12,634 bases of DNA from Elusimicrobiota bacterium. Lineage in GTDB: Bacteria; Elusimicrobiota; Elusimicrobia; UBA1565; UBA9628. The notes beneath the pieces were generated by a model that saw only the letters and a list, made by a program, of their open reading frames with translations, was not told the origin of the DNA and did not search any database. Made by a program: the position numbers and the translations under genes. Positions 1 through 12,634 of this stretch are shown piece after piece; the first letter of the stretch is position 1, and the number at the start of each line of letters is the position of its first letter. The stretch covers positions 1 through 12,634 of the forward strand of contig JACQBB010000134.1 of NCBI GenBank assembly GCA_016194625.1, in the 5' to 3' direction.

Positions 1-117
1 AGCCTGCGCATGGGCCAGCTCTCGAACGCGTTCTTCGACCGGATGGCCCAGCGCGGCCTGTGCCCGGGCGCGAACGCCGCCATGATGTCGTCCCTCGCGG
101 AGAAGAACGTTGCCTGA
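1..117 (+). CDS. C-terminal end of an unidentified protein (5' part outside window)
   Basis: An open frame enters at base 1 and ends at TGA 115-117, giving the last 38 residues of a protein. The tail is short and polar and has one Cys in a GLCPG context. I see no motif that identifies the family. It is accepted as real because its stop lies inside the start region of the next gene (8-bp overlap with TTG 110), the same tight packing seen through the rest of the run, and because the base composition matches its neighbours. Given the context, another radical SAM or cofactor-related protein is possible, but nothing visible proves this. Confidence 0.6.
   Translation, partial: SLRMGQLSNAFFDRMAQRGLCPGANAAMMSSLAEKNVA
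99..102 (+). promoter_or_regulatory. Ribosome binding site deciding the TTG start at 110
   Basis: GGAG sits 7 nt before TTG 110. The in-frame ATG at 137 has no comparable purine run at a useful distance, so the TTG is preferred. Confidence 0.5.
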
Positions 118-1966
118 GCGGCGGTCCCTGCTGTTGATGGCGTCGCGCCGGTGCGCGCTCGACTGCGCGTACTGCCCGGTCGTCCGCGAGGGGCGGGAGA
201 TGGGCCTGGGGACGGCGGCGCGCGCCGTCGAGTGGCTGGCGACCTCGCGCGCGCCGGAGCTGGAGCTGGGCTTCATGGGCGGCGAGCCGCTGCTGCGCCG
301 CGACTGGGTCGACGCGGTCGTGCGCCGCGCGCGCGCGGCCGCCGGGGGGCGCCCGCTGCGGCCGTTCGTCGCCGCGAGCGGCCGGCCGCTGAGCGACGCC
401 GACGCGCGCTGGCTCGCCGCGACCGGCGCGACGGTGCTGCTCGGGCTCGACGGGGGGCCCGAGCACTGCGCCGCTCGCTTCGGCCGGGACCGCGCGTCGT
501 GGGACGCGGCCGCGGCGGCGCTGGGCCGCCTGCGCGCCGCCGGCGTCGAGCACGCGGTGAACTGCGTGGTCGGACCCGGCGAGGCCGAGAGCCTGCCCGC
601 GCGCCTGGCGGCGCTGAAGGCGCTGGGCGCGCGCCGCGTGCAGGTCTCCTACATGATCGGTCCGCTGTGGTCCCCGGACGAGACCGACTCGTTCACGCGC
701 GCGCTCGCGGCGGCGGTCCGCGGCGGCGGGCTCGAGTTCTCGAACGCGCGCGGCGAGATCGAGCCGGTCCTGCTCAAGAACGGCCTGATCGTCGACGAGG
801 ACGGCGTCGTCTGGCTGGACAACGCGGTATTCCTCGAGAAGGCCTTCCCGTCGCTGCGGCGGTCGCACCGCGTCGGGCGCCTGGGCTCCCTGCCGCCGCG
901 CGACGAGGCGGAGGTCGCTCCGGCCGGCCAGCTCGCGCGGGCGGCGCGCGTCCTCGCGAAGGGCTCCGACGAGGGTCGGCGCTGGCTCAGCGCGGTCGGC
1001 GTCGGCCGCCGCGTCGCGCGGGCCCTCGCCGGCGGCTTCGACCCGCGCGACGGCGCCGAGGACCCCGCGCTGCGCCGCGGGGTCGTCGGGGCGGGGCTGG
1101 CCGAGCAGGACCGGTTCCTGAAGGAGCGCCTGCCGGGGCTCGACCGCGTGTTCCTGTTCGTCGCCGGCGGCTGCGACCTCGACTGCGCGTTCTGCCGCCG
1201 CAAGCCCGAGGCGGCGTCCGAGACGCTGGAGGCGCTCGACGCGCGGCTGGCCGAGAACGTCCCGGGCCGGCGCCGCGTCGCGCTGGTCGGCAACGAGCCG
1301 CTCGCGCATCCGCGCATCGTCGACCTGGTCCGGCGCTGCCGGGCGCGGGGCTTCGCCGACGTGGAGATCATGACCTCGGGCCTGCGCCTGGAGGCGCTGG
1401 CGCCGGAGCTGGCGGAGGCCGGCGCGTCGGCGTACGCGGTCGCGCTGCACGGCTCGCGCGCCGAGGTCCACGACGCGGTGACGCGGACGCCGGGGAGCTA
1501 CGACGCCGCGGTCCGCGGCCTGGGAGCCGCGCGCGCACGCGGCGCGCGCGTGTACGTGCACGCGAACGCCTGCCGCGCGAACCTGGCCGACCTGCCGGCG
1601 CTCGAGCGCCTGGCGCGGGAGCGCGGCTGGCCGTTCAGCATCCACCCCCTGCGTCCCAAGGACCCCGACGGGATGAACGAGCCCTACGAGCGCGCGGCTC
1701 CCGGCTACGCGGAGCTGCGCGCGGCGCTGACCGGGCGCGTGAGCTCGCTGACCGGCTTCCCGGCCTGCGTGGCCAAGCGCGTGCAGGGGCGCGTCTCCGC
1801 TCCCGCGGAGGCGGTCGCCGACTCGGTGAAGCTGTACCTGCTGCACCAGGCGTTCGCCAAGCCCGAGGCCTGCGCCTCCTGCGCCGACCGGACGCGCTGC
1901 ACCGGGACCTTCGACGCGCACCTGCGCCTGCGCCCCGGCGACCGCGAGGAGCTGGTCCCGTGCTGA
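110..1966 (+). CDS. Tandem double radical SAM protein
   Basis: This 618-residue protein carries two complete radical SAM modules. Module 1 has C15-x3-C19-x2-C22 for the [4Fe-4S]/SAM cluster and GGEP at 57-60. Module 2 has C355-x3-C359-x2-C362 and a variant GNEP at 394-397. Module 2 ends in the auxiliary-cluster pattern shared by several neighbours: C553 in a P-A-C context, then C588-x2-C591-x5-C597. The last residue is C618. Module 1 has no such cluster. Its C-terminal part instead resembles the rSAM protein at 9469, with a matching NGL-x-VD-x-DG stretch, so this gene looks like a fusion of a 9469-type protein and a 3099-type protein. TTG 110 is chosen over ATG 137 because of GGAG at 99-102. 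The reading frame overlaps the next gene by 7 bp. The reaction is unknown; peptide or cofactor modification are the usual roles of related families. Confidence 0.88.
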   Translation: MPERRSLLLMASRRCALDCAYCPVVREGREMGLGTAARAVEWLATSRAPELELGFMGGEPLLRRDWVDAVVRRARAAAGGRPLRPFVAASGRPLSDADARWLAATGATVLLGLDGGPEHCAARFGRDRASWDAAAAALGRLRAAGVEHAVNCVVGPGEAESLPARLAALKALGARRVQVSYMIGPLWSPDETDSFTRALAAAVRGGGLEFSNARGEIEPVLLKNGLIVDEDGVVWLDNAVFLEKAFPSLRRSHRVGRLGSLPPRDEAEVAPAGQLARAARVLAKGSDEGRRWLSAVGVGRRVARALAGGFDPRDGAEDPALRRGVVGAGLAEQDRFLKERLPGLDRVFLFVAGGCDLDCAFCRRKPEAASETLEALDARLAENVPGRRRVALVGNEPLAHPRIVDLVRRCRARGFADVEIMTSGLRLEALAPELAEAGASAYAVALHGSRAEVHDAVTRTPGSYDAAVRGLGAARARGARVYVHANACRANLADLPALERLARERGWPFSIHPLRPKDPDGMNEPYERAAPGYAELRAALTGRVSSLTGFPACVAKRVQGRVSAPAEAVADSVKLYLLHQAFAKPEACASCADRTRCTGTFDAHLRLRPGDREELVPC

Positions 1967-3120
1967 ACCGCGTCCCCTCGCCGGTCGCGGTGGACGCGCT
2001 CGAGCTGATGCTGAGCCTGCGCTGCGACCTCGCCTGCTCCTATTGCCGCCGCCACGACCAGGCGGAGGAGATGAGCGGCGCGACCGCGCGCGCGGCGCTC
2101 GACCTGCTGTTCGCGCGCCCCGCGGAGCGCAAGGACCTGACCTTCACCGGCGGCGAGCCGCTGCTGCGCCGCGAGCGCGTCGAAGGACTGTCGGACGAGG
2201 CGCGCGGGCGCGCCCGGCGGCTGGGAGCGCGCCTGCGCCTGAACGTGCTCACCAACGGCGCGGGGCTGACCCCGGCCGCGCTCGACTTCCTCTCCGCCGA
2301 CGACGTGCGCGCGGTGGTCACCGCCGCCGGCGAGCCCGCCAGCCACGACCGCTTCCGCCGCGGGCCGGACGGGCGCGGCTCCTGGGCGCGCGTCGCCCGA
2401 GGCCTGGACGCGCTGGTCGCGCGCCTGCCGCCGGAGCGCCTGCTCGTCACCGTCCCGGTGCACCCCGAGCTGGCGCGCCGCCTGCGCGACGACGTGCGCT
2501 TCCTGATGGCGCGCGGCGTCCGGAACCTGAACCTGTGCGCGGTGTTCGGCGTCCCGTGGACGGCCGCGCAGGCCGCCGACCTCGCGCGCGAGTACGCGGG
2601 CGTGCTGGCCGACGCCGTCGCCGCCGCGCGCGCCGGCGCGCCGGTCGCGATCCAGGCTCTCGGCGCCAGCCTGAAGCGCTGGACCGGCACGACGCCGCAC
2701 TACGACTACCGCGACGAGGGCGGCACGCACTGCCCGCTGGCGTTCCGTCTCGTCGCCTGGCCCGACGGCGTCCTCTCGCTGAACCCGTTCCGCTTCGGCC
2801 CGGAGGCCGCGGACTTCGCGGTCGGCCGCCTGGGCGAGGGCTTCCGCGCCCCGTTCGGCGCCTGCGCGCCCGACGGCTCGGCCTGCCCCGCCTGCCGCAA
2901 GCGCGTCGTCGGCGTGGACCGCGCGTACGGCGCGGCCTACATGGCGGCCGCGGGCGGCGGCGAGGCCGAGTTCCGGCGCGCGTGGCGGGCGAACGTCCTG
3001 CTGTGCGACGGCGCGCTGAACCGCGCGGCCGCGGACCGGGTCTGGCGGCGGGCGGCGCAGGAGCCGGCGCTCAAGCGCTTCGTGGAGGTCAACGACTCGT
3101 GCTGCGACCTGGTGGGCTGA
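1960..3120 (+). CDS. Radical SAM protein with degenerate SPASM-like C-terminus
   Basis: The product has 386 residues. C22-x3-C26-x2-C29 binds the SAM cluster and GGEP is at 64-67. The C-terminal half looks like a SPASM domain with a changed ligand: C258 is followed 12 residues later by G270, and the position where SPASM has its second Cys is N275. It continues with C302-x6-C309-x2-C312, C349 and a Cys pair C381-C382 close to the end. SPASM or twitch domains hold auxiliary Fe-S clusters in peptide-modifying and cofactor-forming rSAM enzymes. GTG 1960 is chosen because GAGGAG (1946-1951) lies 8 nt upstream, it sits in a 7-bp overlap with the previous gene, and it puts the first Cys at residue 22. 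Further upstream the same frame is open only by composition. The substrate is unknown. Confidence 0.88.
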   Translation: MLNRVPSPVAVDALELMLSLRCDLACSYCRRHDQAEEMSGATARAALDLLFARPAERKDLTFTGGEPLLRRERVEGLSDEARGRARRLGARLRLNVLTNGAGLTPAALDFLSADDVRAVVTAAGEPASHDRFRRGPDGRGSWARVARGLDALVARLPPERLLVTVPVHPELARRLRDDVRFLMARGVRNLNLCAVFGVPWTAAQAADLAREYAGVLADAVAAARAGAPVAIQALGASLKRWTGTTPHYDYRDEGGTHCPLAFRLVAWPDGVLSLNPFRFGPEAADFAVGRLGEGFRAPFGACAPDGSACPACRKRVVGVDRAYGAAYMAAAGGGEAEFRRAWRANVLLCDGALNRAAADRVWRRAAQEPALKRFVEVNDSCCDLVG

Positions 3121-4043
3121 GCGCGGCGCCGCGGCGCCTGGAGCTGCACCTGTCCTACGCCTGCGCCCAGCGCTGCGCGTTCTGCTCGGAGAGCGACCGC
3201 ATGGCGCGCTGGCGCGGCTCGCCCGTGCGCGGCGACGAGGCGGCGCGCGTGCTGGTCGAGAAGCGCCGCGAGGGCTTCGACCACGTGACCTTCACCGGCG
3301 GCGAGCCGACCGCGCACCCGCGACTGCCGGCGGCGCTGGAGGCCGCGCGGCGGCTCGGCTACAAGACCTACCTGACGACGAACGGCGGCCGCTTCGCCGA
3401 GGAGGGCTACGCGCGCGCGGTCCTCCCGTTCGTCGACGAGCTGTGCGTCTCGGTCCACGGTCCCGACGCCGCGACCCACGACGCCGCTGCGCGCACGCCC
3501 GGCTCCTTCGAGCGTGCGCTGCGGGCGCTCGCGCACGCGGGGCGCTTCGGCCGTCCGTACCTGCTCACCAACACCGTCGTCACCCGCGAGAACTGGGACG
3601 CGCTGGAGGCGACGCTGGCGCTGACGCGGCCGCGGGCACGCCACTGCCTGGTCTCGAACGTGGCGCCGGAGGGGCGCGCCGCGCGCGCCTACCGGCGCCT
3701 CGCGGTGCGCCTGTCGGCCTGGCGCGAACGCGTGGACGCGCTGGCCGCCTCGTTCGCGGGGTCCGGCACGGTCCTGCGCTTCTTCGGCCTGCCGCTGTGC
3801 GTCCTCGGCGGGCGCGCGGAGCTCTCCAACGACGCGCACTTCTCGCCGCGCGTCACCGTCGAGCGCCGCTCGTCCGGCGGCCGCGCCGCGCTGGCCGGCT
3901 TCCTGAGCGCCGACGCCGGCCGCGGGCGCGTGCGTCCCGCGCCGTGCGACGGCTGCTCCGCGCGCGGCGCCTGCGCGGGCGTGTTCGCCCGCTACGCCGC
4001 CGAGTTCGGCGACGGCGAGCTGAGACCCCGGAGGGACGCCTGA
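3099..4043 (+). CDS. Radical SAM protein with auxiliary Cys cluster
   Basis: The product has 314 residues. C22-x3-C26-x2-C29 is the SAM-cluster motif and GGEP lies at 67-70. The C-terminus carries the pattern shared with its neighbours: C234 in a GLPLC motif, then C283-x2-C286-x5-C292 followed by AG, probably an auxiliary Fe-S cluster. Of the rSAM proteins here it most resembles module 2 of the 110-1966 protein; both share a VHG or LHG stretch followed by a TRTPGS- or ARTPGS-type segment. GTG 3099 is chosen because GGAGG (3084-3088) lies 10 nt upstream and other in-frame starts are absent or poor. The result is a 22-bp overlap with the previous gene. The stop overlaps the next ATG by one base (TGATG), which suggests coupled translation. 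The reaction is not identifiable. Confidence 0.87.
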   Translation: MLRPGGLSAAPRRLELHLSYACAQRCAFCSESDRMARWRGSPVRGDEAARVLVEKRREGFDHVTFTGGEPTAHPRLPAALEAARRLGYKTYLTTNGGRFAEEGYARAVLPFVDELCVSVHGPDAATHDAAARTPGSFERALRALAHAGRFGRPYLLTNTVVTRENWDALEATLALTRPRARHCLVSNVAPEGRAARAYRRLAVRLSAWRERVDALAASFAGSGTVLRFFGLPLCVLGGRAELSNDAHFSPRVTVERRSSGGRAALAGFLSADAGRGRVRPAPCDGCSARGACAGVFARYAAEFGDGELRPRRDA

Positions 4044-4912
4044 TGGCCACGCTCGCCTACCTGCAGGTCGCGCGCGTCTGCAACCAGAAGTGCCTGTTCT
4101 GCTCGAACCCGGAGAACGGCCGCGTGATCACTTGGAAGGAGGCGACGGCCCTGCTCGACGCGTTCGCCGCGCAAGGGGCCGCGGGCGTGATCTTCACCGG
4201 CGGCGAGCCGACGCTGTTCGAGCGCCTGCCCGAGTTGGTCGCCTACGCCCGCAGGAAGGGCCTGCCGCCGAGGCTGATCACCAACGGCCAGAAGGCCGGG
4301 GGGGCCGGCTACCTGAAGTCGCTCGCCGACGCCGGACTCGACCACATGCACGTCTCCGTCCACTCGGCGAAGCCCGAGGTGCAGGGGGAGCTGACGGGCA
4401 ACAAGAACTCGCTGGCCAACATCTACCGGGCGCTGGAGAACGCCGGCAGGCTCGGCATCCGCGTGGACGTCAACACCGTCATCAACAGCCGCAACGCCGG
4501 CCACCTGAGCCTGACGCCGCGGACCTTGGTCGGCAAGTTCCCGTTCCTGCGCCACTTCGTGTGGAACAACATGGACCCGCTGATGAACACGGCCTCGCTG
4601 AACCCGGAGCTGGTGCCGACCCTGCGCTCGTTCGAGGTGGAGCTGCACCTGGCGATGGCCTGGCTGGCCTCCGTCGGGCGCACCTTCCGCGTCGAGCGCG
4701 TGCCGCTGTGCTACATGTCCGACTTCGCGCACTTCTCCACCGAGACGCGCAAGTTCGTCAAGGACGAGGGCCGCGACATCTACTTCCTCGACGAGAAGGG
4801 CCGGCGCACGCAGGGCGTCAGCTCCTGGACCTACGGGAAGGCGCCGCGCTGCAAGGCGGACTGCGCGGTGGAGAAGATCTGCGCCGGGCTGTACCAGATG
4901 GACGTCTACTAG
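4043..4912 (+). CDS. Radical SAM protein, 3' end truncated by a 25-bp duplication
   Basis: As the sequence stands the product has 289 residues. C13-x3-C17-x2-C20 and GGEP at 53-56 define the rSAM core, and C223 (VPLC) with C270-x3-C274-x5-C280 forms the auxiliary-cluster pattern. GGAGGG (4030-4035) sits 7 nt before ATG 4043. The stop TAG 4910-4912 spans the junction between two copies of a perfect 25-bp tandem repeat. With one copy removed the frame continues to TGA 5010-5012, gives 314 residues, and overlaps the next start as GTGA. The restored tail (YYSSDEL and onward) aligns with the tail of the paralog at 11269-10334 (GRYDAAEL and onward; 311 residues, roughly half identical by eye). The catalytic core is intact, so the short form may still work, but the ancestral gene was almost certainly longer. 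Confidence 0.85.
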   Translation: MATLAYLQVARVCNQKCLFCSNPENGRVITWKEATALLDAFAAQGAAGVIFTGGEPTLFERLPELVAYARRKGLPPRLITNGQKAGGAGYLKSLADAGLDHMHVSVHSAKPEVQGELTGNKNSLANIYRALENAGRLGIRVDVNTVINSRNAGHLSLTPRTLVGKFPFLRHFVWNNMDPLMNTASLNPELVPTLRSFEVELHLAMAWLASVGRTFRVERVPLCYMSDFAHFSTETRKFVKDEGRDIYFLDEKGRRTQGVSSWTYGKAPRCKADCAVEKICAGLYQMDVY

Positions 4913-4936
4913 GCTGTACCAGATGGACGTCTACTA
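4887..4936 (+). repeat. Perfect 25-bp tandem direct repeat (2 copies)
   Basis: Bases 4887-4911 and 4912-4936 are identical and adjacent; each begins GGCTGTACCAG and ends GTCTACTA. The unit length is not a multiple of three, so the second copy shifts the frame and creates the TAG at 4910-4912. No other exact tandem repeat of this size was seen in the window. It could be replication slippage in the organism or an unmerged overlap left by assembly. Confidence 0.97.
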
Positions 4937-5012
4937 TTCGTCCGACGAGCTGTGCCCGCTGCCGACGCCGGCCGCGGCCGTCGCGGCGAAGGTCCGAGGG
5001 GAGGGCGCGTGA
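4913..5012 (+). pseudogene. Displaced 3' tail of the 4043 radical SAM gene
   Basis: This 100-bp stretch would be the only true gap in the plus-strand run. In the frame ending at TGA 5010-5012 it encodes a second copy of LYQMDVY followed by the 25 residues missing from the rSAM protein upstream. An ATG at 4923 could in principle open a 29-residue frame, but it has no ribosome binding site. I read it as remnant coding sequence cut off by the duplication, not as an intergenic regulator. Confidence 0.75.
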
Positions 5013-5917
5013 GCGACCGGATCGACCTGAAGGTCGGCTTCCGCTGCAACAACTTCTGCCACTTCTGCGTGCAGGGCGACAAGCGCGAGCGGCTGCCCGC
5101 CAAGGGCGAGGACGAGCTGCTGCGCTCGCTGGAGGAGGGCCGCGCGGAGGGCGCGACCGGCGTCGTCATCACCGGCGGCGAGCCGACGCTCCACAAGAGC
5201 ATCGTCACGATCGCGAAGAAGGCGCGCGCGCTCGGCTACACGCTCGTCCAGGTGCAGAGCAACGGGCGCACCTTCTGCTACGAGGACTTCTGCCGCCGCC
5301 TGATCGACGCCGGCGTCAACGAGTTCGGCCCGTCGCTGCACGGCTCGACGCCGAAGATCCACGACTACCTGACCGGAGCGCCGGGCGCCTTCCTGCAGAC
5401 GGTGTCCGGCATGCGCCTGCTCAAGAAGCTGGGCCAGCGCGTCATCGTGAACTCGGTGATCACGAAGCACAACTACCGCGACCTGCCGGACCTGGCGCGC
5501 CTTCTCGTCTCGCTGGGCGCGGACCAGTACCAGCTCGCCTACATGCACATGAGCGGCCGCGCCGGCGAGAACCGGAAGTGGCTGGCCGCGCGCAAGACGC
5601 TGATCGAGCCGTACGTGAAGAAGGCGCTCGACGTAGGCCTCCGCGCGGGGAAGACCGTGATGACCGAGGCGATCCCGTACTGCCGGATGGCCGGCTACGA
5701 GCATTGCGTCGCCGAGCGCATCATCCCGCGCACCCGCATCTACGACGCCGACTGCGTGATCCCCGACTACACGCGCACGCGCGTGGACGAGGGCAAGTGC
5801 CGCGGGCCGCGCTGCGGCGAGTGCCGCTGGAGCGCGGAGTGCGAGGGGCCGTGGCGCGAGTATCCGGAGCTGTTCGGCTGGGACGAGTTCGTCCCGGTCG
5901 CCAAGGGGGCGGCATGA
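5009..5917 (+). CDS. Radical SAM protein with Cys-rich C-terminus
   Basis: The product has 302 residues. C13-x3-C17-x2-C20 and GGEP at 56-59 mark the rSAM core. The C-terminal third is the most Cys-rich of the set: C225 (IPYC), C233, C249, then C264-x4-C269-x2-C272-x5-C278, enough for one or two auxiliary Fe-S clusters. GTG 5009 is preferred because GAGGGG (4996-5001) lies 7 nt upstream and because it overlaps the ancestral stop of the previous gene as GTGA. The frame stays open further upstream, but that stretch reads as arginine- and glycine-rich shadow sequence. The stop overlaps the next ATG as ATGA, so this gene is directly coupled to the nitrogenase-like subunit and may act in the same pathway step or in its maturation. 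The substrate is unknown. Confidence 0.88.
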   Translation: MSDRIDLKVGFRCNNFCHFCVQGDKRERLPAKGEDELLRSLEEGRAEGATGVVITGGEPTLHKSIVTIAKKARALGYTLVQVQSNGRTFCYEDFCRRLIDAGVNEFGPSLHGSTPKIHDYLTGAPGAFLQTVSGMRLLKKLGQRVIVNSVITKHNYRDLPDLARLLVSLGADQYQLAYMHMSGRAGENRKWLAARKTLIEPYVKKALDVGLRAGKTVMTEAIPYCRMAGYEHCVAERIIPRTRIYDADCVIPDYTRTRVDEGKCRGPRCGECRWSAECEGPWREYPELFGWDEFVPVAKGAA

Positions 5918-8205
5918 ACCGCATCGCGGTCTTCGGCAAGGGCGGCATCGGCAAGTCCACGTTCTCGGCGAACCTGGCCGCGGCCTACGCGCGCCGCGGC
6001 CTGCGAGTCCTGCTGGTCGGCTGCGACCCGAAGCACGACACGACGAACGCGCTGACCGAGGGCGCGCCGATCCGCACCGCGATCGAGCACTCGGCGTTCA
6101 TGGACTCCGGCAAGGGCGGGGTCGAGGGGCTGGTCGTGCGCGGCCGGCTGGGGGTGGACTGCGTCGAGGCGGGCGGGCCGGAGCCGGGCATCGGCTGCGC
6201 GGGGCGCGGCATCTCGCGGATGATCGAGATGCTGGAGGAGGCGGGCTACCTGCGGCCGGGGCGCTACGACGCCGCGGTCTTCGACGTGCTGGGCGACGTG
6301 GTGTGCGGCGGCTTCGCCGCGCCGCTGCGCGAGGGGATGGCCGACAAGATCGTCATCGTGACCTCCGAGGAGCTGATGTCGCTGTACGCGGCCAACAACA
6401 TCGCGCGCGCGGTCCGGAACTACTCGGCCAACGGCGCCGTGCTGGCGGGCCTGGTCGCCAACCTGCGCGACCCCGACGCCGACCGCGAGGCGGTCGCGCG
6501 CTTCGCCGGCCTCATCGGGACGAAGGTGCTCGCCTGGATGGACCGCGATCCGGCCGTGCGCCGCGCCGAGTACCGCCGCGAGACGGTGGTCGAGTCCGCC
6601 CCGGCCTCGGGCTTCGCGAAGGCCGTCGAGGCCCTGGCCGACGCGCTGGCGGCCGAGGCGGAGGCGCCGGTCCCGACGCCGCTGTCCGACGAGCGCTTCG
6701 GCCTCCTGTCGCGCGTCGGCTTCACCGCCGCGGAGGCCGTGCCGGAGAAGGCCGCGTCCGCGCCGCCCCCGGAGGCGCCGCGCCCGGCGCCGGCCGAGAA
6801 GAACGGCGGGCGCGCCCGCGTCGCGCGCGAGCACGAGCGCCTGGAGGAGGAGCTCGCCGCCGCGCGCCCGCCCGAGGCCGGCTCGAACGCCGAGCAGTGG
6901 GGCGGCGCCGACCAGTGGCGGGTCTTCTTCTGCGACCGCGAGGCCAAGCGCAACGGCCGCGCCGGCCTGGAGCTGCGCGCGCCGGTCCTGCACATCTGGC
7001 ACCAGGACCTGGAGTGCAGCTACGCGTCGCCCGACTGGGGCCTGAACGAGCCGTGCTTCTTCAACTTCCCGTGGACGCGCAAGACCTCCGCGGGCGGCGC
7101 CCCGCGCGACGAGGCCGAGCCCGGCGCGCCGATGCCGCCGATGATGATGACCGACCTGCGCGACCTGGACGTGATCAACGGCGGCGAGGCGAAGCTGCGC
7201 GAGGCGCTGGAGGCGGGGCTGGCCCTGCCGATGACGATCGAGGCGGTCGTCGTGAACTCGACCTGCGTGCCGACGGTGATCGGCGACGACGTGCCGAAGA
7301 CCCTGCGCGCGGTCGCCAACCCGAAGGGCACGCCGCTGATCTTCAACAACTCCGCCAACAACCAGGACGTCGACGTGGGGCGGCTCCTGCTCGACAAGGT
7401 CCGCGCCGAGCCCGGCTTCGCGGACCGGCCGAAGGTCCCCGGCTCGGTGAACCTGGTCGGCTTCCCCGAGGGCCCGGCGCTGGGCGAGCTCAAGGAGCTG
7501 CTCGAGCGCTCGGGCGTGACGGTGAACGCGGCGGTGATGCCGGCGCTGACGCTGGAGCTGGCGCGCTCGCTGTCCGCGGCGTCGGCGCAGGTGTTCCTGC
7601 CCAACGCCGCCTATCAGCCCGTGTACGACGAGGTGTTCCGCCCGCTGGCCTCCGAGAACCGAGAGTTCGACCCGCCGTACGGCATGGAGGGGACGCGGCG
7701 CTGGCTGAAGGAGGTCGCCGGCCTTTTCGGCCGCGCGGCCGCCGCGGAGAAGGCGTTCGCGGCGGCGTTCGCCCCGTGGTCGCGGCGCTGGGACGACCTG
7801 CGCCGGCGCGCGCTGGACCTGCGCTTCGCGTTCGTGGTGGACCGGGCGCGGATGGCGCGGCTCACCGACGCGCGGCTGATGTGGGGCGTGCCGGTCCTGC
7901 GCGTCCTGCGCGAGATGGGCGCGCGCGTCGAGGTCCTGCTGTACCAGGGCGAGGACCGCGGCCCGCTCAAGGGCTTCAAGGACCCCGCGGAGCTGGAGCG
8001 GCGGCTGGCCGAGGGCCGCTACGACGCGGTGTACTCGGAGTACTTCTTCGACGAGCGCCTGGTCCGCGCGGGCGCCGCGCAGTTCTCGCTGGCGCCGTTC
8101 GAGCCGGGCGTGCGCGGCGCGGTCGCCACGCTCGAGCGCCTGCTCGCGGTCGGGCGCTGGGACTTCTACCGGCGCTACGCCGAGCACCTGAAGGGGGAGC
8201 GATGA
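5914..8205 (+). CDS. Nitrogenase-like NifH-NifD fusion protein
   Basis: The product is one 763-residue polypeptide. Residues 1 to about 255 are a NifH/BchL-type iron protein: P-loop GKGGIGKST at 8-16, GCDPKHDTT at 36-44, [4Fe-4S] ligands C95 (GCAGRG) and C131 (DVLGDVVCGGF), and RDPAVRRAEYRR as in NifH. A linker (about 256-325) follows, Ala/Pro-rich and then charged with coiled-coil character. The NifD-like part (about 330-763) aligns around C340, C368 (HIWHQDLECSYA, compare NifD HISHGPVGCGQYS) and C451 (STCVPTVIGDD), the expected P-cluster ligands, and keeps a DPPYGMEGTRRWL segment. No Cys follows C451, so the FeMo-co ligand Cys275 of NifD has no counterpart. Known family role: ATP-driven electron transfer for a difficult reduction. 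The substrate is unknown. ATGA overlaps join it to both neighbours. The fusion shows no frame break. Confidence 0.92.
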   Translation: MNRIAVFGKGGIGKSTFSANLAAAYARRGLRVLLVGCDPKHDTTNALTEGAPIRTAIEHSAFMDSGKGGVEGLVVRGRLGVDCVEAGGPEPGIGCAGRGISRMIEMLEEAGYLRPGRYDAAVFDVLGDVVCGGFAAPLREGMADKIVIVTSEELMSLYAANNIARAVRNYSANGAVLAGLVANLRDPDADREAVARFAGLIGTKVLAWMDRDPAVRRAEYRRETVVESAPASGFAKAVEALADALAAEAEAPVPTPLSDERFGLLSRVGFTAAEAVPEKAASAPPPEAPRPAPAEKNGGRARVAREHERLEEELAAARPPEAGSNAEQWGGADQWRVFFCDREAKRNGRAGLELRAPVLHIWHQDLECSYASPDWGLNEPCFFNFPWTRKTSAGGAPRDEAEPGAPMPPMMMTDLRDLDVINGGEAKLREALEAGLALPMTIEAVVVNSTCVPTVIGDDVPKTLRAVANPKGTPLIFNNSANNQDVDVGRLLLDKVRAEPGFADRPKVPGSVNLVGFPEGPALGELKELLERSGVTVNAAVMPALTLELARSLSAASAQVFLPNAAYQPVYDEVFRPLASENREFDPPYGMEGTRRWLKEVAGLFGRAAAAEKAFAAAFAPWSRRWDDLRRRALDLRFAFVVDRARMARLTDARLMWGVPVLRVLREMGARVEVLLYQGEDRGPLKGFKDPAELERRLAEGRYDAVYSEYFFDERLVRAGAAQFSLAPFEPGVRGAVATLERLLAVGRWDFYRRYAEHLKGER

Positions 8206-9479
8206 GCCACGGGACCCCGACGAACTTCCCCAGCATGCTGGGCGTGTACCTGGCCGTCAACGCGGTCCCGGACGCCTACGTGCTGGTGGACGGCCCGGAC
8301 TGTTCCTTATATAAGGCGCATTTCATCCACGGCCGCCATGATTGGGAATCCACCCTCCTGCGCGTGGACGGCCGCCATCGCGTCGCCTTCACCAACGTGT
8401 GCGCGCGCGGCGTGGTGAAGCAGCACGACGAGGAGCTGGCGGCCGCGGTCCTGCGCCTGGACGCCCTGCCCGACTGCGCGGCCGTCCTGCTCACGGCCCT
8501 GCCGATGTGCTCGATCACCGGCGTGGACTACGGACGGGTGACCCGCGCGCTCGCGCCGCGGCTCAAGGGGACGGCGCTGGACGTCCCGCCCGGGTCGCTG
8601 ATGGGGGACTGGCTGGACGGCTACGCGCAGACGCTGACGGCGCTGGCCAAGTCTCTGAAGCTCGGGCCCGGCCGGACGCGGCCCGGGACCGTCGCCGTCG
8701 TCGGCCACCTGATGGACCGCAACGAGGCCGACCGCCGCGCCGACGTGGCCGAGCTGGAGCGCCTGCTGGCGGGCGCGGGGCTGGAGTGCGTCTCGGTGTG
8801 GCTGGCCGGGCGCCCGTACGCGGAGCTGAAGCGCGTCGAGGAGGCGGAGACCGTCGTGTCCCTGCCCTACGCGCGCGGCGCCGCGCGCCTGATCGCCGAG
8901 AGGACCGGCGCGCGGCTCGTCGAGGCGCCGCTGCCGTTCGGCCTGCCGAAGACGGCGGGCTTCGTGACGGCGGCGGCCGAGGCGGCCGGCGGCGCGGCGC
9001 CGGCGCGCGCGCGGACGTTCGTCGCGGCCGAGCTCAAGCGCCTCCTGCCGCGCCTGCGCTGGGTGTTCCCGCACCTGACCGTGGGCAAGCGCGTCGCCTA
9101 CGCGGGCGACCCGCACCTGTTCGGCGGCTTCCTCGACATCGCGGCCGACGCGGGCCTGGAGACGGCGAGCGCGGTGCTGACCGCGCGGCGCGCGCACGGC
9201 GGCGCGGTCGAGGGGCTCACGGTCCTCCACGAGCCGCCGGAGGAGGACGCGCTGACCGGGCGCCTGCTCACCGAGGGCGTGGACCTGCTGGTCTCCTGCT
9301 CCCTGCGCATCTTCTCCAACGGCTGGCGCGGCGACGCGCCGGTGATGACCTTCGGCTTCCCCAGCAACGGCCACCACGCGTTCTTCGAGCGGCCGACGCT
9401 GGGCTTCAACGGCTACGCGGGCGTGGTGGACCGGCTGGCGGGCGCGCTGTCGTCGGCGGGGAGCGGGCGTGCGCGCTGA
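8202..9479 (+). CDS. NifK/NifN/BchB-like partner subunit
   Basis: The product has 425 residues and probably pairs with the D-like domain encoded just upstream (ATGA overlap). The family is recognised from several segments: an N-terminus resembling the P-cluster region, with VLVDGPDC placing C34 like NifK Cys95; TALPMCSITGVDY placing C103 like NifK Cys153; GRPYAELKRVEEAETVVSLPY; GKRVAYAGDPHLFGG; and a C-terminal TFGFPSNGHHAFFERP...GFNGYAG block like the GFP...GY.GA end of NifK, NifN and BchB. The NifK Cys70 position appears to be non-Cys (near N8-P10). C67 and C92 are extra. A reduced or altered cluster site is therefore likely, as in BchB, where an Asp replaces a Cys. Codons 34 to about 52 use unusual AT-ending codons. 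It is not a functional molybdenum nitrogenase subunit. Confidence 0.85.
   Translation: MSHGTPTNFPSMLGVYLAVNAVPDAYVLVDGPDCSLYKAHFIHGRHDWESTLLRVDGRHRVAFTNVCARGVVKQHDEELAAAVLRLDALPDCAAVLLTALPMCSITGVDYGRVTRALAPRLKGTALDVPPGSLMGDWLDGYAQTLTALAKSLKLGPGRTRPGTVAVVGHLMDRNEADRRADVAELERLLAGAGLECVSVWLAGRPYAELKRVEEAETVVSLPYARGAARLIAERTGARLVEAPLPFGLPKTAGFVTAAAEAAGGAAPARARTFVAAELKRLLPRLRWVFPHLTVGKRVAYAGDPHLFGGFLDIAADAGLETASAVLTARRAHGGAVEGLTVLHEPPEEDALTGRLLTEGVDLLVSCSLRIFSNGWRGDAPVMTFGFPSNGHHAFFERPTLGFNGYAGVVDRLAGALSSAGSGRAR
8305..8316. other. 12-bp AT-rich perfect palindrome inside the NifK-like gene
   Basis: CCTTATATAAGG is a perfect inverted repeat. It covers parts of codons 35-39 (Ser-Leu-Tyr-Lys-Ala) and includes TTA and TAT, which are rare in this window. 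It is embedded in a short patch (about 8301-8360) with TGT, CAT, GAT and GAA codons. It may be chance, a protein binding site or an internal promoter-like element; nothing else supports a function. Confidence 0.5.
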
Positions 9480-10392
9480 GGCCCTGCTCGTCCTGGTCCT
9501 GACGCGGCGCTGCGACCGGCGTTGCCGCCACTGTCCGCAGGCGTTCGCCGACTCGGACATGGCCGAGGCGACGCTGGACGCGGCGCTGACGGGCCTCCTG
9601 CCGCTCCTGGCCGCGCCCGCGCGCCTGAAGCTGTTCGGCGGCGAGCCGCTGCTGCGCCCCGACCTCGTCGAGCGCGCGCTGGATTTCGTGAAGGAGCGCG
9701 CGCCCGGGACGGCGGTCGAGCTGCCGACGAACGGCAACGGCCTGCGCTGGGCGGCGCCGATGCTCGCGCGCCATCCGGGCGTCGAGGTGTTCGCCAGCCG
9801 CCCGCACCCGGCGGCCGGGCGCCTGCCCGGCGCGGTCCACAACCTGCTGCTCGCGCCCGGGGAGTCGGCCGCCTCCGCCGCGCGCCGCCTGCTCGAGGCG
9901 CGCCGCCGCGGCTTCCGCCGCGTCAACGTCCTGCCCGCCTACTTCGCCCGCTGGAGCCCCGCGCAGGCGGCCGGGCTGGAGGACGCCTTCACGGCCCTGC
10001 GCGCGGCGCTCGCGCGCCTGGCCGCGGCGGGCCGGCCCGTCGAGCTGGTCAACCTCTCGCGCCGCGGCTCCACGCCGCTCTACAACGACGGGCTGACCGT
10101 GGACGCCGACGGCGAGGTGTACGCGTCGAACCTGGTCCTGGCCGCGGCGGTCGCGCCGCATCGCGCGCGCCTGCGCCTGGGGAGCGTCGCCGACCCCGGC
10201 GGCCTGGCCGCGCGTCCGGCCGCCGAGCCCGAGCGGGTGCTGGAGGACTCGTTCCCGCCGGAGATACTGGAGTGCACGCGCGCGGCGGACGCGGCGCTGA
10301 CGCGGTTCTGCCGCGCGGTCGCCGCGGACGGCGTCAGTCCCGCGCGGCCAGGACCCGGCGCGCGATCCGGCGGGGGTCTTTCGCTTGCGTGA
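9469..10392 (+). CDS. Radical SAM protein lacking the auxiliary Cys cluster
   Basis: The product has 307 residues. C15-x3-C19-x2-C22 and GGEP at 57-60 define the rSAM core. In the C-terminal half an NDGLTVDADGEVYASN segment looks like the first strand of a SPASM domain, with Ser where the Cys ligand should be. The only later Cys are C269 and C281, so a full second cluster is unlikely. It is clearly related to module 1 of the 110-1966 protein: same Cys spacing, same GGEP position and matching C-terminal strand. GTG 9469 has GGGGAG (9458-9463) 5 nt upstream and overlaps the NifK-like stop by 11 bp. The last 19 residues are low in complexity and are encoded within a 59-bp convergent overlap with the minus-strand rSAM gene. 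The substrate is unknown. Confidence 0.87.
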   Translation: MRAEALLVLVLTRRCDRRCRHCPQAFADSDMAEATLDAALTGLLPLLAAPARLKLFGGEPLLRPDLVERALDFVKERAPGTAVELPTNGNGLRWAAPMLARHPGVEVFASRPHPAAGRLPGAVHNLLLAPGESAASAARRLLEARRRGFRRVNVLPAYFARWSPAQAAGLEDAFTALRAALARLAAAGRPVELVNLSRRGSTPLYNDGLTVDADGEVYASNLVLAAAVAPHRARLRLGSVADPGGLAARPAAEPERVLEDSFPPEILECTRAADAALTRFCRAVAADGVSPARPGPGARSGGGLSLA

Positions 10393-11269
10393 CCAGCTCC
10401 GCCGCGTCGTAGCGGCCGCCCATGTCCCACAGCCCGGCGCAGATCGCCGCGAGCGTGCAGTCCGCGCAGGCGGCGCCCTTCCCGTAGCGCCACTCGTCCT
10501 CGCGGTGGAAGCGCCGCTCGTCGAGGAACTCGACGGAGCGCTGCTCGCCCTTGACCAGCGCGCGCGTCTCGGTCGCGCAGTGGGCGAACTCGCCCATGTG
10601 GCACAGCGGGACCTTCTCGACGCGGAAGGTGCGCCCGGTGCGCGCCAGCCAGCGCATCGCGCGGCGCAGGGCGGGGCCGCTCGCCGTCAGCGTCGGGACG
10701 GTCTCCGGGTGCTCGGCGACGCGCTCGACGAGCGGGTCGAGATAGGTCCAGGAGAAGTGGCGCAGGTACGGGAAGCGCTCGCACAGCCAGCGCGCGGTCT
10801 GGTCCAGGTGGCCGGCGTTCTGCGCGCAGATGGTCTGGTTCACCGCGACGGTCGCGCCGCGGCGGCCCAGGCGCGCGAGCGTGCGCACGATGTTCGCCAG
10901 CGACTCGGGGTTGCCGGTCAGGAACGCCTGCACGGCCTTGCGGTGGCTGTGCACGCTGACGTGGACGTGCTCCAGGCCCGCGGCGAGCAGGCGGTCCAGG
11001 TACGCGGGGTCGGCCGTGCGCTGGGCGTTGGTGATCACGCGGCAGGGCACGCCGCGGCGCGCGGCGTAGGCGATCAGCTCGGGCAGCGGCTCCCACAGCG
11101 TGGGCTCGCCGCCGGTCAGGATGACGCCGTCGTAGCCGCGCCGGCGGTAGCGGTCGACGAGCCTCCGGGCCTCGGCGAGCGGGAGCTCGCGCTCGTTGAC
11201 CGGGTTCGAGCAGAACCGGCAGCGCTGGTTGCACCGCCGCACGACTTGGATGTAGCCGAGGTTCGCCAT
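10334..11269 (-). CDS. Radical SAM protein, paralog of the 4043 gene
   Basis: The product has 311 residues from the ATG at 11269-11267. The core motifs are C13-x3-C17-x2-C20 and GGEP at 53-56, and the auxiliary pattern is C223 (VPLC) with C268-x2-C271-x5-C277. These positions coincide almost exactly with the 4043 protein, and long blocks match (RTFRVE-[RK]-VPLC, HVSVHS, NAGHL, FP-[FY]-LRHF). An upstream in-frame ATG at 11293 would add 8 residues (MRATARPP). I prefer 11269 because its first residues line up with the paralog, although neither start has a visible Shine-Dalgarno sequence, so leaderless translation is possible. The gene faces the plus-strand run, overlaps its last gene by 59 bp and diverges from the carbamoyltransferase gene. 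It is probably a duplicate of the 4043 gene that has taken a related substrate or step. Confidence 0.87.
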   Translation of the reverse strand: MANLGYIQVVRRCNQRCRFCSNPVNERELPLAEARRLVDRYRRRGYDGVILTGGEPTLWEPLPELIAYAARRGVPCRVITNAQRTADPAYLDRLLAAGLEHVHVSVHSHRKAVQAFLTGNPESLANIVRTLARLGRRGATVAVNQTICAQNAGHLDQTARWLCERFPYLRHFSWTYLDPLVERVAEHPETVPTLTASGPALRRAMRWLARTGRTFRVEKVPLCHMGEFAHCATETRALVKGEQRSVEFLDERRFHREDEWRYGKGAACADCTLAAICAGLWDMGGRYDAAELVTQAKDPRRIARRVLAARD

Positions 11270-11295
11270 CGGAGGACGGGCCGTCGCTCGCATTC

Positions 11296-11302
11296 TATGA
11301 TA
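11296..11302. promoter_or_regulatory. Candidate bidirectional -10 element (TATGATA)
   Basis: The 44-bp gap between the two divergent genes is the only AT-containing intergenic patch in the window. TATGAT (11296-11301) is one base from the bacterial -10 consensus on the plus strand, and TATCAT reads on the minus strand from the overlapping bases 11302-11297. No convincing -35 was found for either direction. The minus-strand site lies so close to ATG 11293 and 11269 that the transcript would have little or no leader. Confidence 0.35.
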
Positions 11303-11303
11303 T

Positions 11304-11309
11304 GGGGGG
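11304..11309 (+). promoter_or_regulatory. G-run serving as ribosome binding site for the ATG at 11314
   Basis: Six consecutive G residues end 4 nt before ATG 11314. This is a weak but usable Shine-Dalgarno match, and the only one available in the short leader. Confidence 0.4.
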
Positions 11310-11313
11310 CCGC

Positions 11314-12634
11314 ATGAAGACGGCGCGGGCGCCGCTGACCGACTTCTTCGGCACGCGCCTGGAGCCCGACGCGCTCGCCGCGGGCCTGCGCGCCCAGGGC
11401 CTGACGCGCTTCGCGCTGGTCCTGACCGACGCGGGCCCCGTCCTGCGCCTGCCCAAATCCGCGCTGGGCGGCGACGCCGCCCAGCGCGCGGAGACCTGGC
11501 TGCGAGGCGCCTTCTCGCCGTTGGTGGCGGTCCGGGTGGACGGCATCCGGCCCGTCCGCGGGCTCGACGGCCGCGTCGCCGACCGCCGCCGCCGCCGCGT
11601 CGCGGTCGTCGCGCTGGCCGAGGTCTTCGACGAGCGGGAGCGTCCTTCGGCCGAGGCCGCCCTGCGCGCGCGCGTCGGCGGGCGCGTCCACGAGGCGTCG
11701 TGGCGCCGTCCCGGCGGCCCGTCCGGCGTCCGTCCGGCGACGCTGCTCGCGGCCTCGCGCGACGCGCGCGCGCTGGCCTGGCTGAAGGCGGCGCTCGCCG
11801 ACGAGCGCGGCTTCCCGGCGCCGCCGTCCGAGGTCCTGCTCGACGGCCTGGAGTGGGGCGTCGCGCGCCGGCCGACCGTCGCCGCCGACGCGCCCGCGGG
11901 CGCGCCGCCGGTGCTCGCCGACGACGCGCGCTGCGGCGGCTGCGGGACGTGCGCGGCCGCGTGCCCGGCGGCGTGCCTGGACGGGCGCGGGCGATTCCTC
12001 GCCGGGGCGGCCGAGCGCTGCCTGTCGTGCTTCGACTGCGTCGAGGCCTGCCCGCAGGACGCGCTGCGTCCGAAGCGCACGGCCGCCAGCGCGACGACGA
12101 GCCGCTCGCTGGCGCGGCGGCCGGGCTGGCTGTCGCGCCTGCGCGGCGCCTCGGGCCCGCCGCTGCCGGCGCCGTTCCCGCCGTCCTTCCTCCTGCCGAA
12201 GGCCGACGACGCGCCGCCGCGCCTGATCCTGGGCCTGGCGGTCGCGACCCGCCAGGAGCACGCCGCCGCGCTGGTGGACGGCGGCGCGGTCGCGGGCGCG
12301 GCCGAGGAGGAGCGCTTCTCGCGCGTCCGCCACCAAGGTTGGGAGTCGCCGGCGCGGCCGGGCTCGACGCTCGCCTCGGACCCGACGCTGTGCCTGGAGG
12401 AGGTCCTGTGCCGCCGCGCGCTCGGCGCCCTGCTCGCGCCGCGCGGGCTGACGCTCGACGACATGGACCTGCTCGCGGTCAACGGCCTGCCGGCGCGCTA
12501 CCGCCGCGCGTTCTCGGCGACGGCCGCGGACTCCGCCCCGCCGGCCCTGCGGGCCGGGCGCGTCCTGTTCCTGCCCCACCACCGGTGCCACGCGGCGTCG
12601 GCCTGGCGCGCGTCGGGCCTGCGCGACGCCCATG
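11314..12634 (+). CDS. Ferredoxin-carbamoyltransferase (NodU/CmcH-like) fusion, 3' partial
   Basis: The frame is open from ATG 11314 to the window end (440 residues, C-terminus missing). Residues 1 to about 200 form a domain I do not recognise. Next is a two-[4Fe-4S] ferredoxin module: C207-x2-C210-x2-C213-x3-C217-P and C236-x2-C239-x2-C242-x3-C246-P. After a Pro-rich linker, residues from about 303 (LILGLAVAT...HAAALVDGG) begin an ASKHA-fold carbamoyltransferase of the NodU/CmcH/Kae1 type, including AAEEERFSRVRH and the metal-binding HHxxHA pattern (H422, H423, H426). Family members transfer a carbamoyl group from carbamoyl phosphate to an O or N atom of a small molecule; HypF uses a related domain to make the CN ligand of NiFe hydrogenase. 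The acylphosphatase, zinc-finger and YrdC parts of HypF are not seen here. Placement beside the reductase locus suggests a shared cofactor or metabolite, which is inference. Confidence 0.8.
   Translation, partial: MKTARAPLTDFFGTRLEPDALAAGLRAQGLTRFALVLTDAGPVLRLPKSALGGDAAQRAETWLRGAFSPLVAVRVDGIRPVRGLDGRVADRRRRRVAVVALAEVFDERERPSAEAALRARVGGRVHEASWRRPGGPSGVRPATLLAASRDARALAWLKAALADERGFPAPPSEVLLDGLEWGVARRPTVAADAPAGAPPVLADDARCGGCGTCAAACPAACLDGRGRFLAGAAERCLSCFDCVEACPQDALRPKRTAASATTSRSLARRPGWLSRLRGASGPPLPAPFPPSFLLPKADDAPPRLILGLAVATRQEHAAALVDGGAVAGAAEEERFSRVRHQGWESPARPGSTLASDPTLCLEEVLCRRALGALLAPRGLTLDDMDLLAVNGLPARYRRAFSATAADSAPPALRAGRVLFLPHHRCHAASAWRASGLRDAH

Follow-up and report, generated by a model that had tools for sequence, protein, structure and literature searches.

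A fused NifH- and NifD-like protein with an adjoining K-like partner in a radical SAM-rich gene cluster of Elusimicrobiota

In several well-described members of the nitrogenase-like superfamily, the NifH-like Fe protein (H) is encoded separately from the component-1 chains, here termed D (NifD/E-like) and K (NifK/N-like). In this study we describe a locus of an Elusimicrobiota bacterium (assembly GCA_016194625.1, contig JACQBB010000134.1, positions 1 to 12,634 of the forward strand; this whole stretch of 12,634 nucleotides is termed the window), in which H and D are parts of one polypeptide and a K-like chain is encoded by the next gene. The initial annotation of the window assumed that the H protein is always separate, which is incorrect, as nifH-nifE fusions have been in print since 2012 (PMC3464626). 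A remark in that work, with data not shown, mentions fused nifH/nifE open reading frames (ORFs) followed by a nifN-like gene, which were filtered out of its tree (Dos Santos et al., 2012; PMC3464626), and fused nifH/nifE is named for Methanomassiliicoccales in a passage of PMC4153887. Compared by description, the window has the same arrangement as the fusions of 2012, with H joined to a D/E chain and a K/N-like gene next to it. The H-D fusion as such is already known from other lineages; no first report is claimed here, and the surprise is limited accordingly.

Elusimicrobiota are also the source of a group VI nitrogenase homologue, for which a possible tetrapyrrole role is credited to Meheust et al. 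(2020) in a passage of PMC11257099. Like the window family, group VI consists of nitrogenase-like component proteins and occurs in the phylum of the window's nearest named relatives, and the window family is probably the Elusimicrobiota group VI family. In the study of Meheust and colleagues from 2020, group VI genes are reportedly located beside many radical S-adenosylmethionine (radical SAM) genes. Among literature titles and the beginnings of abstracts, a coverage which did not extend to the Meheust study itself, no report of an H-D fusion in Elusimicrobiota was found, and the passages containing fusion words in PMC9391474, PMC4246453 and PMC3733012 mention none.

The initial annotation placed H and D motifs in one unbroken frame of 763 codons, and this holds with correct coordinates: the gene runs from an ATG at position 5914 to a stop at 8203-8205, with no internal stops. 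PF00142 (Fer4_NifH) covers residues 3-262 (E 7.5e-82, 275.3 bits against a gathering score of 25) and PF00148 (Oxidored_nitro) residues 406-702 (E 4.8e-26, 92 bits against 28.6), while residues 263-405 have no Pfam assignment. With both Pfam domains, the P-loop and the two H cysteines present, the fused protein belongs to the nitrogenase-like superfamily. Because Fe proteins and related ATPases dominated the fold matches of the whole-protein model, the D part was modelled separately, and it is predicted to adopt a nitrogenase-family fold (predicted local distance difference test, pLDDT, 91.4).

The two domains are joined by a linker of about 60-70 residues, a value which varies with the chosen start of D; our own D profile was cut at residue 330, which partly fixes its linker of about 61 residues, and the earlier estimate of about 70 was fair. 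In the structure model, confidence is lowest at residues 277-295 (pLDDT <50), and residues 296-314 form a helix. The codon preference remains in frame 0 throughout the linker, as judged by a preference table trained on domain regions including those of this gene, and GTG at codon 276 is the sole in-frame ATG, GTG or TTG within residues 226-406. Among the listed relatives, which are introduced below, the H and D profile matches lie 49 to 327 residues apart, with a middle value of 68. In five of the longer fusions (P0083, P0084, P0090, P0093 and P0097), H and D are separated by an additional stretch of more than 100 residues to which Pfam assigns nothing.

Residue conservation was assessed over 82 aligned fusions. 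P-loop positions 8-11 and 13-15 are identical in all of them, with T16 likewise listed as invariant, and so are C95, C131, C368 and C451. These four cysteines of the originally proposed motif list are thereby retained, whereas C340, conserved in only 51 of the 82 fusions, was dropped as a family-defining ligand. The cysteines of the window H-D protein are confined to positions 37, 83, 95, 131, 340, 368, 381 and 451, and C368 and C451 are the only invariant cysteines of the D part; a cysteine at position 747, present in 64 of the 82 fusions, is missing from the window protein. C451 aligns, counted by hand, with residue 158 of chain 9fmg_A of methylthio-alkane reductase, and a passage of PMC12552129 gives residue 158 of this chain as a P-cluster ligand. 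In K, C34 is present in 42/42 aligned rows, C67 in 34/42 and C103 in 36/42.

These residues set the fused protein apart from the characterized enzymes. It shares with the Mo-, V- and Fe-nitrogenases the H fold, the D fold and a C...IGDD motif containing C451, but its conserved cysteines are too few for six P-cluster ligands. Furthermore, the window D has no cysteine beyond residue 451, hence no counterpart of Cys275, the ligand of the iron-molybdenum cofactor (FeMoco), which would fall well after the C451 counterpart. Because this counterpart is absent, dinitrogen fixation by the fused enzyme appears unlikely. The same lack of cysteines distinguishes the window D from MarD of MarHDK, whose cluster ligands are given as Cys270 and His429 in a passage of PMC12552129. 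Among the NCBIfam models, nifH (274.9 against a cut-off of 394.35) and nifD (19.8 against 653.55) were not reached by the fused protein. The best match was CfbC, at 279 bits, and CfbCD resembles the window system in combining a NifH-like reductase with a component 1. However, the CfbC cut-off of 402 was not reached, CfbC is encoded by a separate gene, the window protein lies outside the CfbC clade and the two systems are apart in both trees; CfbD is moreover described as a homodimer in a passage of PMC12176620, whereas the window D has a K neighbour. The dark-operative protochlorophyllide oxidoreductase (DPOR, BchLNB) and the chlorophyllide oxidoreductase (COR, BchXYZ) differ in having a separate H, and their Bch rows are apart from the window in both trees (BchL model 189.5 against 345.15; BchX 171.8 against 331.2).

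A protein search found 2711 proteins, and the best 120 of them, made up of the window protein and 119 relatives, were analysed. H and D share one chain in 115 of the 119 (106 H-D and 9 H-H-D, beside 3 D only and 1 H-H only), although the length filter of the search (0.55-1.75 of the query) drops free H proteins, and the list is no census of fused versus split forms. Best local alignments of the window protein with the fused relatives listed give 29-79% identity. A false join of separate H and D genes through an error of assembly or sequencing, or a missed stop, was ruled out by these fused relatives from independent assemblies and by the coding preference that runs on in frame through the linker; we give it practically no chance. 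What it has on its side is P0060, a D-only protein 68% identical to the window D on a contig of 58 kb, which is left without explanation and is possibly a true H/D split close to the window protein. The other D-only proteins, P0062 and P0068, lie on contigs of 1,986 and 5,567 bases. Two further candidates for split relatives, G206:C98 and G213:C393 (open frames 476 and 463; D 80% and 65% identical), were set aside as uninformative, since their D frames reach the contig end. The initial proposal to look for further H-D fusions was thus borne out, and the close relatives are not all split. Over 29 fused rows, H-tree and D-tree distances correlate with r 0.841, a value reached by 0 of 2000 permutations, and the H and D parts have therefore travelled together. 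It is a genuine fusion of long standing. Species genomes were also scanned through 80 loci selected by two NifH words, and at 4 of these loci (L001, L025, L045 and L079) one frame holds both H and a component-1 domain. Among plasmids, none of 264 matching records covers 80% of the query.

A distinct branch of the family, as initially suggested, is recovered in separate H and D trees against Nif, Bch, Cfb and other nitrogenase-like references, a set without named Mar rows. The H tree, of 72 rows, places the window protein within a branch of 41 rows (support 96/96), apart from the CfbC, Nif, Bch and other nitrogenase-like rows. In the joint D and K tree (100 rows), which was built by a quick method with Shimodaira-Hasegawa-like approximate likelihood ratio (SH-aLRT) support only and includes 22 rows of unusual composition, the window D lies within a 43-row branch (SH-aLRT 99) apart from the references, and the window K within an 18-row branch (SH-aLRT 100). 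A long row, the D of Sporomusa locus L146, stands beside the D branch of the window. In both trees, unfused Elusimicrobiota H and D rows sit among the fused ones, and on the H tree at least four changes between the fused and split states are counted, leaving out sE_G200, a row cut by a contig end. Because the neighbours of the split rows differ (F_G126/F_G004 for H, 94/75; F_P0109/P0111 for D, 99), both trees are unrooted and long Bch branches meet in the H tree, fission and repeated fusion are indistinguishable. The archaeal H-E fusions (L025 and L079) are unlike the window protein in clustering with the H-H-D proteins, and together these form another branch in both trees. A single clade for all fusions was not rejected for H (approximately unbiased test, p 0.13), and one origin of all fusions is neither shown nor rejected.

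A D-domain query, run across the whole phylum of G001 (Elusimicrobia bacterium RBG_16_66_12) and that of G002 (labelled Myxococcota by the tree tool) only, matched 36 of 340 genomes in the former and 23 of 282 genomes drawn from the latter at an E value of 1e-10 or lower; at most 5 or 6 candidates were scored per genome, which undercounts copies, and weak matches could represent other branches. Organism names are available for 29 rows of the best 120, of which 27 are Elusimicrobia or Elusimicrobiota, one is Pseudenhygromyxa and one is named only as a bacterium. Domains were counted on seven larger contigs, leaving out those of G206 and G213 (<10 kb each). D and H domains number 7 and 4 in G198, 5 and 2 in G201, 6 and 4 in G200, 3 and 3 in G001, 2 and 1 in G217, and 2 and 2 in G239; of two stretches of G218, one has 2 and 2 and the other 1 and 1. 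These contigs hold 10 fused H-D frames, each with an adjoining K; in addition, the contig end truncates one H of G200, probably a fused copy, and one pair of G001 is broken by a frame change. Since D exceeds H on some stretches, some D-K pairs there are without an H of their own, and these probably borrow one. The initial annotation had derived a fixed H:D stoichiometry and a new docking cycle from the covalent tie, and both are weakened, because related clusters encode free H proteins and more D than H. Unfused H, D-K pairs lacking an H and unfused rows among the fused ones in both trees suggest that the tether is dispensable.

We consider it fairly probable that the fused protein acts as a tethered, ATP-driven nitrogenase-like reductase in a biosynthetic pathway rich in radical SAM enzymes. 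The flexible linker would leash the Fe protein to the D subunit, thereby raising the local concentration of H, and D would pair with the K chain encoded by the overlapping next gene. A pair of H domains, supplied by two H-D chains or by one H-D chain together with a free H, could form a dimer around a single [4Fe-4S] cluster; docked on the D-K face, this dimer would hydrolyse ATP and transfer electrons one at a time to an Fe-S cluster held between D and K. Candidate ligands of this cluster are C368 and C451 of D and C34 of K, joined in near relatives by C67 and C103 of K. The electrons would then reduce an organic substrate and not dinitrogen, and the enzyme would serve a pathway run mainly by the neighbouring radical SAM enzymes. 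A stricter version, in which the tether works in cis, seems rather unlikely to us: an (H-D)2K2 assembly would keep one resident H dimer swinging between its two D-K halves with no need for diffusion of a free Fe protein, H-H-D proteins would supply a full H dimer per half, and clusters holding as many as seven D chains and at least a dozen radical SAM domains would thus build a new molecule.

The nature of the substrate can be read in more than one way. The pathway might modify tetrapyrroles, with the enzyme reducing a tetrapyrrole double bond as DPOR, COR and CfbCD do. This reading, which we regard as possible and doubtful, agrees with the role suggested in print for the group VI homologue (PMC11257099, in the passage cited above), and the missing FeMoco ligand agrees with reductases lacking a large cofactor. 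In three related loci a methylase gene (PF00590) is also found, directly 3' of K in L134 and likewise present in L132 and L137, and 6 of the 27 genomes searched, out of 36 with D matches, have such a gene no more than about 7 kb from a D domain. The methylase was nevertheless downgraded as proof of a tetrapyrrole pathway, as the best model for these three proteins is the RsmI-like TIGR00096, at 46.5-62.8 bits against a cut-off of 167.9; moreover, the other 21 genomes have no PF00590 gene near D, and neither the H tree nor the D tree places the window with Bch or Cfb. Scans of the ten genes predicted in the window, seven with Pfam and three with our own radical SAM profile, recognised no known tetrapyrrole enzyme, the exception being a sub-threshold PF00590 match (25.5 against 27.8) inside the radical SAM gene at 10334-11293.

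The methylase and carbamoyltransferase genes are compatible with tetrapyrroles, peptides and other natural products alike. A modified peptide or other natural product, whose scaffold would be modified by radical SAM enzymes, tailored by a methylase and a carbamoyltransferase and reduced at one or more bonds by the tethered reductase, can be entertained only tentatively. It would account for the many parallel D-K pairs per related cluster, for Carbam_trans domains in L130 and L135, where the NodU model stays far under its cut-off, and for the resemblance of radical SAM neighbours to peptide maturase families. The matches listed for these neighbours (HxsC4, HxsC and PapB; four of seven genes scanned) are, however, generic and all below cut-off, and the window genes overlap or abut, which leaves little space for a precursor peptide, for which no short-ORF search was made. 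Several D-K pairs beside radical SAM genes could also hold a large Fe-S cofactor built by NifB-like radical SAM neighbours, some of them serving as NifEN-like scaffolds, and a passage of PMC12176620 (2025) describes L- versus M-cluster binding in group VI as not settled. We consider this improbable, given the two invariant cysteines of the D part, the single invariant cysteine of K and the window D without a cysteine beyond residue 451.

For the tethered reductase, as favoured here, the wider interest lies in the Fe protein cycle of binding, ATP use and release, a central nitrogenase question, for which natural H-D fusions provide proteins to study docking without diffusion. The clusters furthermore flag a pathway of Elusimicrobiota that has received little study and combines numerous parallel nitrogenase-like reductases with radical SAM enzymes; relatives occur in Myxococcota.

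The features of the window are collected in Table 1. Five radical SAM genes, one of them double, are followed by H-D, K and a further radical SAM gene in a tight, overlapping run, and the window holds eight radical SAM domains in total. The tail of the last protein resembles by eye the start of a carbamoyltransferase, with no such Pfam match in the window frame; its longer counterpart in L135 contains Fer4, Carbam_trans and a weak radical SAM match.

Table 1. Coordinates of the fused gene, its parts and its neighbours in the window
Feature	Position	Strand	Basis or remark
Double radical SAM protein	110..1966	+	Pfam and own profile
Radical SAM protein	1960..3120	+	Own profile only
Radical SAM protein	3099..4043	+	Own profile only
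Radical SAM protein	4043..4912	+	Own profile only
Radical SAM protein, start may be upstream at 4952	5009..5917	+	Pfam; 4-base overlap with H-D start
Fused H-D gene, 763 aa (P0001)	5914..8205	+	ORF and Pfam
NifH-like domain, residues ~1-269	5914..6720	+	
P-loop GKGGIGKST, residues 8-16	5935..5961	+	
C95, [4Fe-4S] ligand position of H dimer	6196..6198	+	Role by homology
C131, second [4Fe-4S] ligand position of H	6304..6306	+	
Linker, residues ~270-330	6721..6903	+	Own profile; 3' end set by profile cut
NifD/E-like component-1 domain, residues ~331-763	6904..8205	+	Pfam, own profile, structure model
C340	6931..6933	+	Not family-conserved
C368 within HQDLEC	7015..7017	+	Invariant
C451 within STCVPTVIGDD	7264..7266	+	Invariant
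K-like component-1 partner, 425 aa (P0002); C34, C67, C103	8202..9479	+	Pfam E 8.1e-36; 4-base overlap with H-D stop
Radical SAM protein, 3' of K and overlapping K	9469..10392	+	Pfam 29.4 bits against cut-off 29.5; own profile
Radical SAM protein, convergent	10334..11269 (wider: 10334-11293)	-	Pfam
4Fe-4S dicluster protein, cut by window end	11302..12633	+	

Several other architectures were observed in addition. The H-H-D proteins (P0103, P0108, P0110, P0112, P0113, P0116, P0117, P0119 and P0120; 948-1104 aa) consist of two NifH domains followed by D, with the P-loop and the two cysteine motifs preserved in each H half. Searching for them at E 1e-100 in the phylum of G006 gave a match in 1 of 297 genomes, where a frame of 748 residues shares 40% identity with the second H plus D, and five genomes reached through loci gave shorter matches. 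In three loci, an extra, shorter K-like gene precedes a D-K pair, giving the order K-D-K (L130:13373-14299, L141:2734-3879 and L139:12762-13868). A conserved neighbour of about 340-407 aa recurs in six genomes (L141:9997-11220, L143:8810-10033, L139:5461-6684, L137:12543-13745, L132:3463-4683 and L125:18469-19488); its 407-residue form matched nothing in Pfam (L143) or NCBIfam (L141 and L143), and no solved structure was a convincing relative (L141). In a metagenome-assembled genome of Ruminococcaceae, a NifH-like and a radical SAM domain share one open frame (L062:4825-6882). Finally, a plasmid of Sporomusa termitida (L146:3949-11273) encodes a free nitrogenase-like H and two component-1 genes, directly 3' of an iron ATP-binding cassette (ABC) transporter operon and with TonB-dependent receptors nearby.

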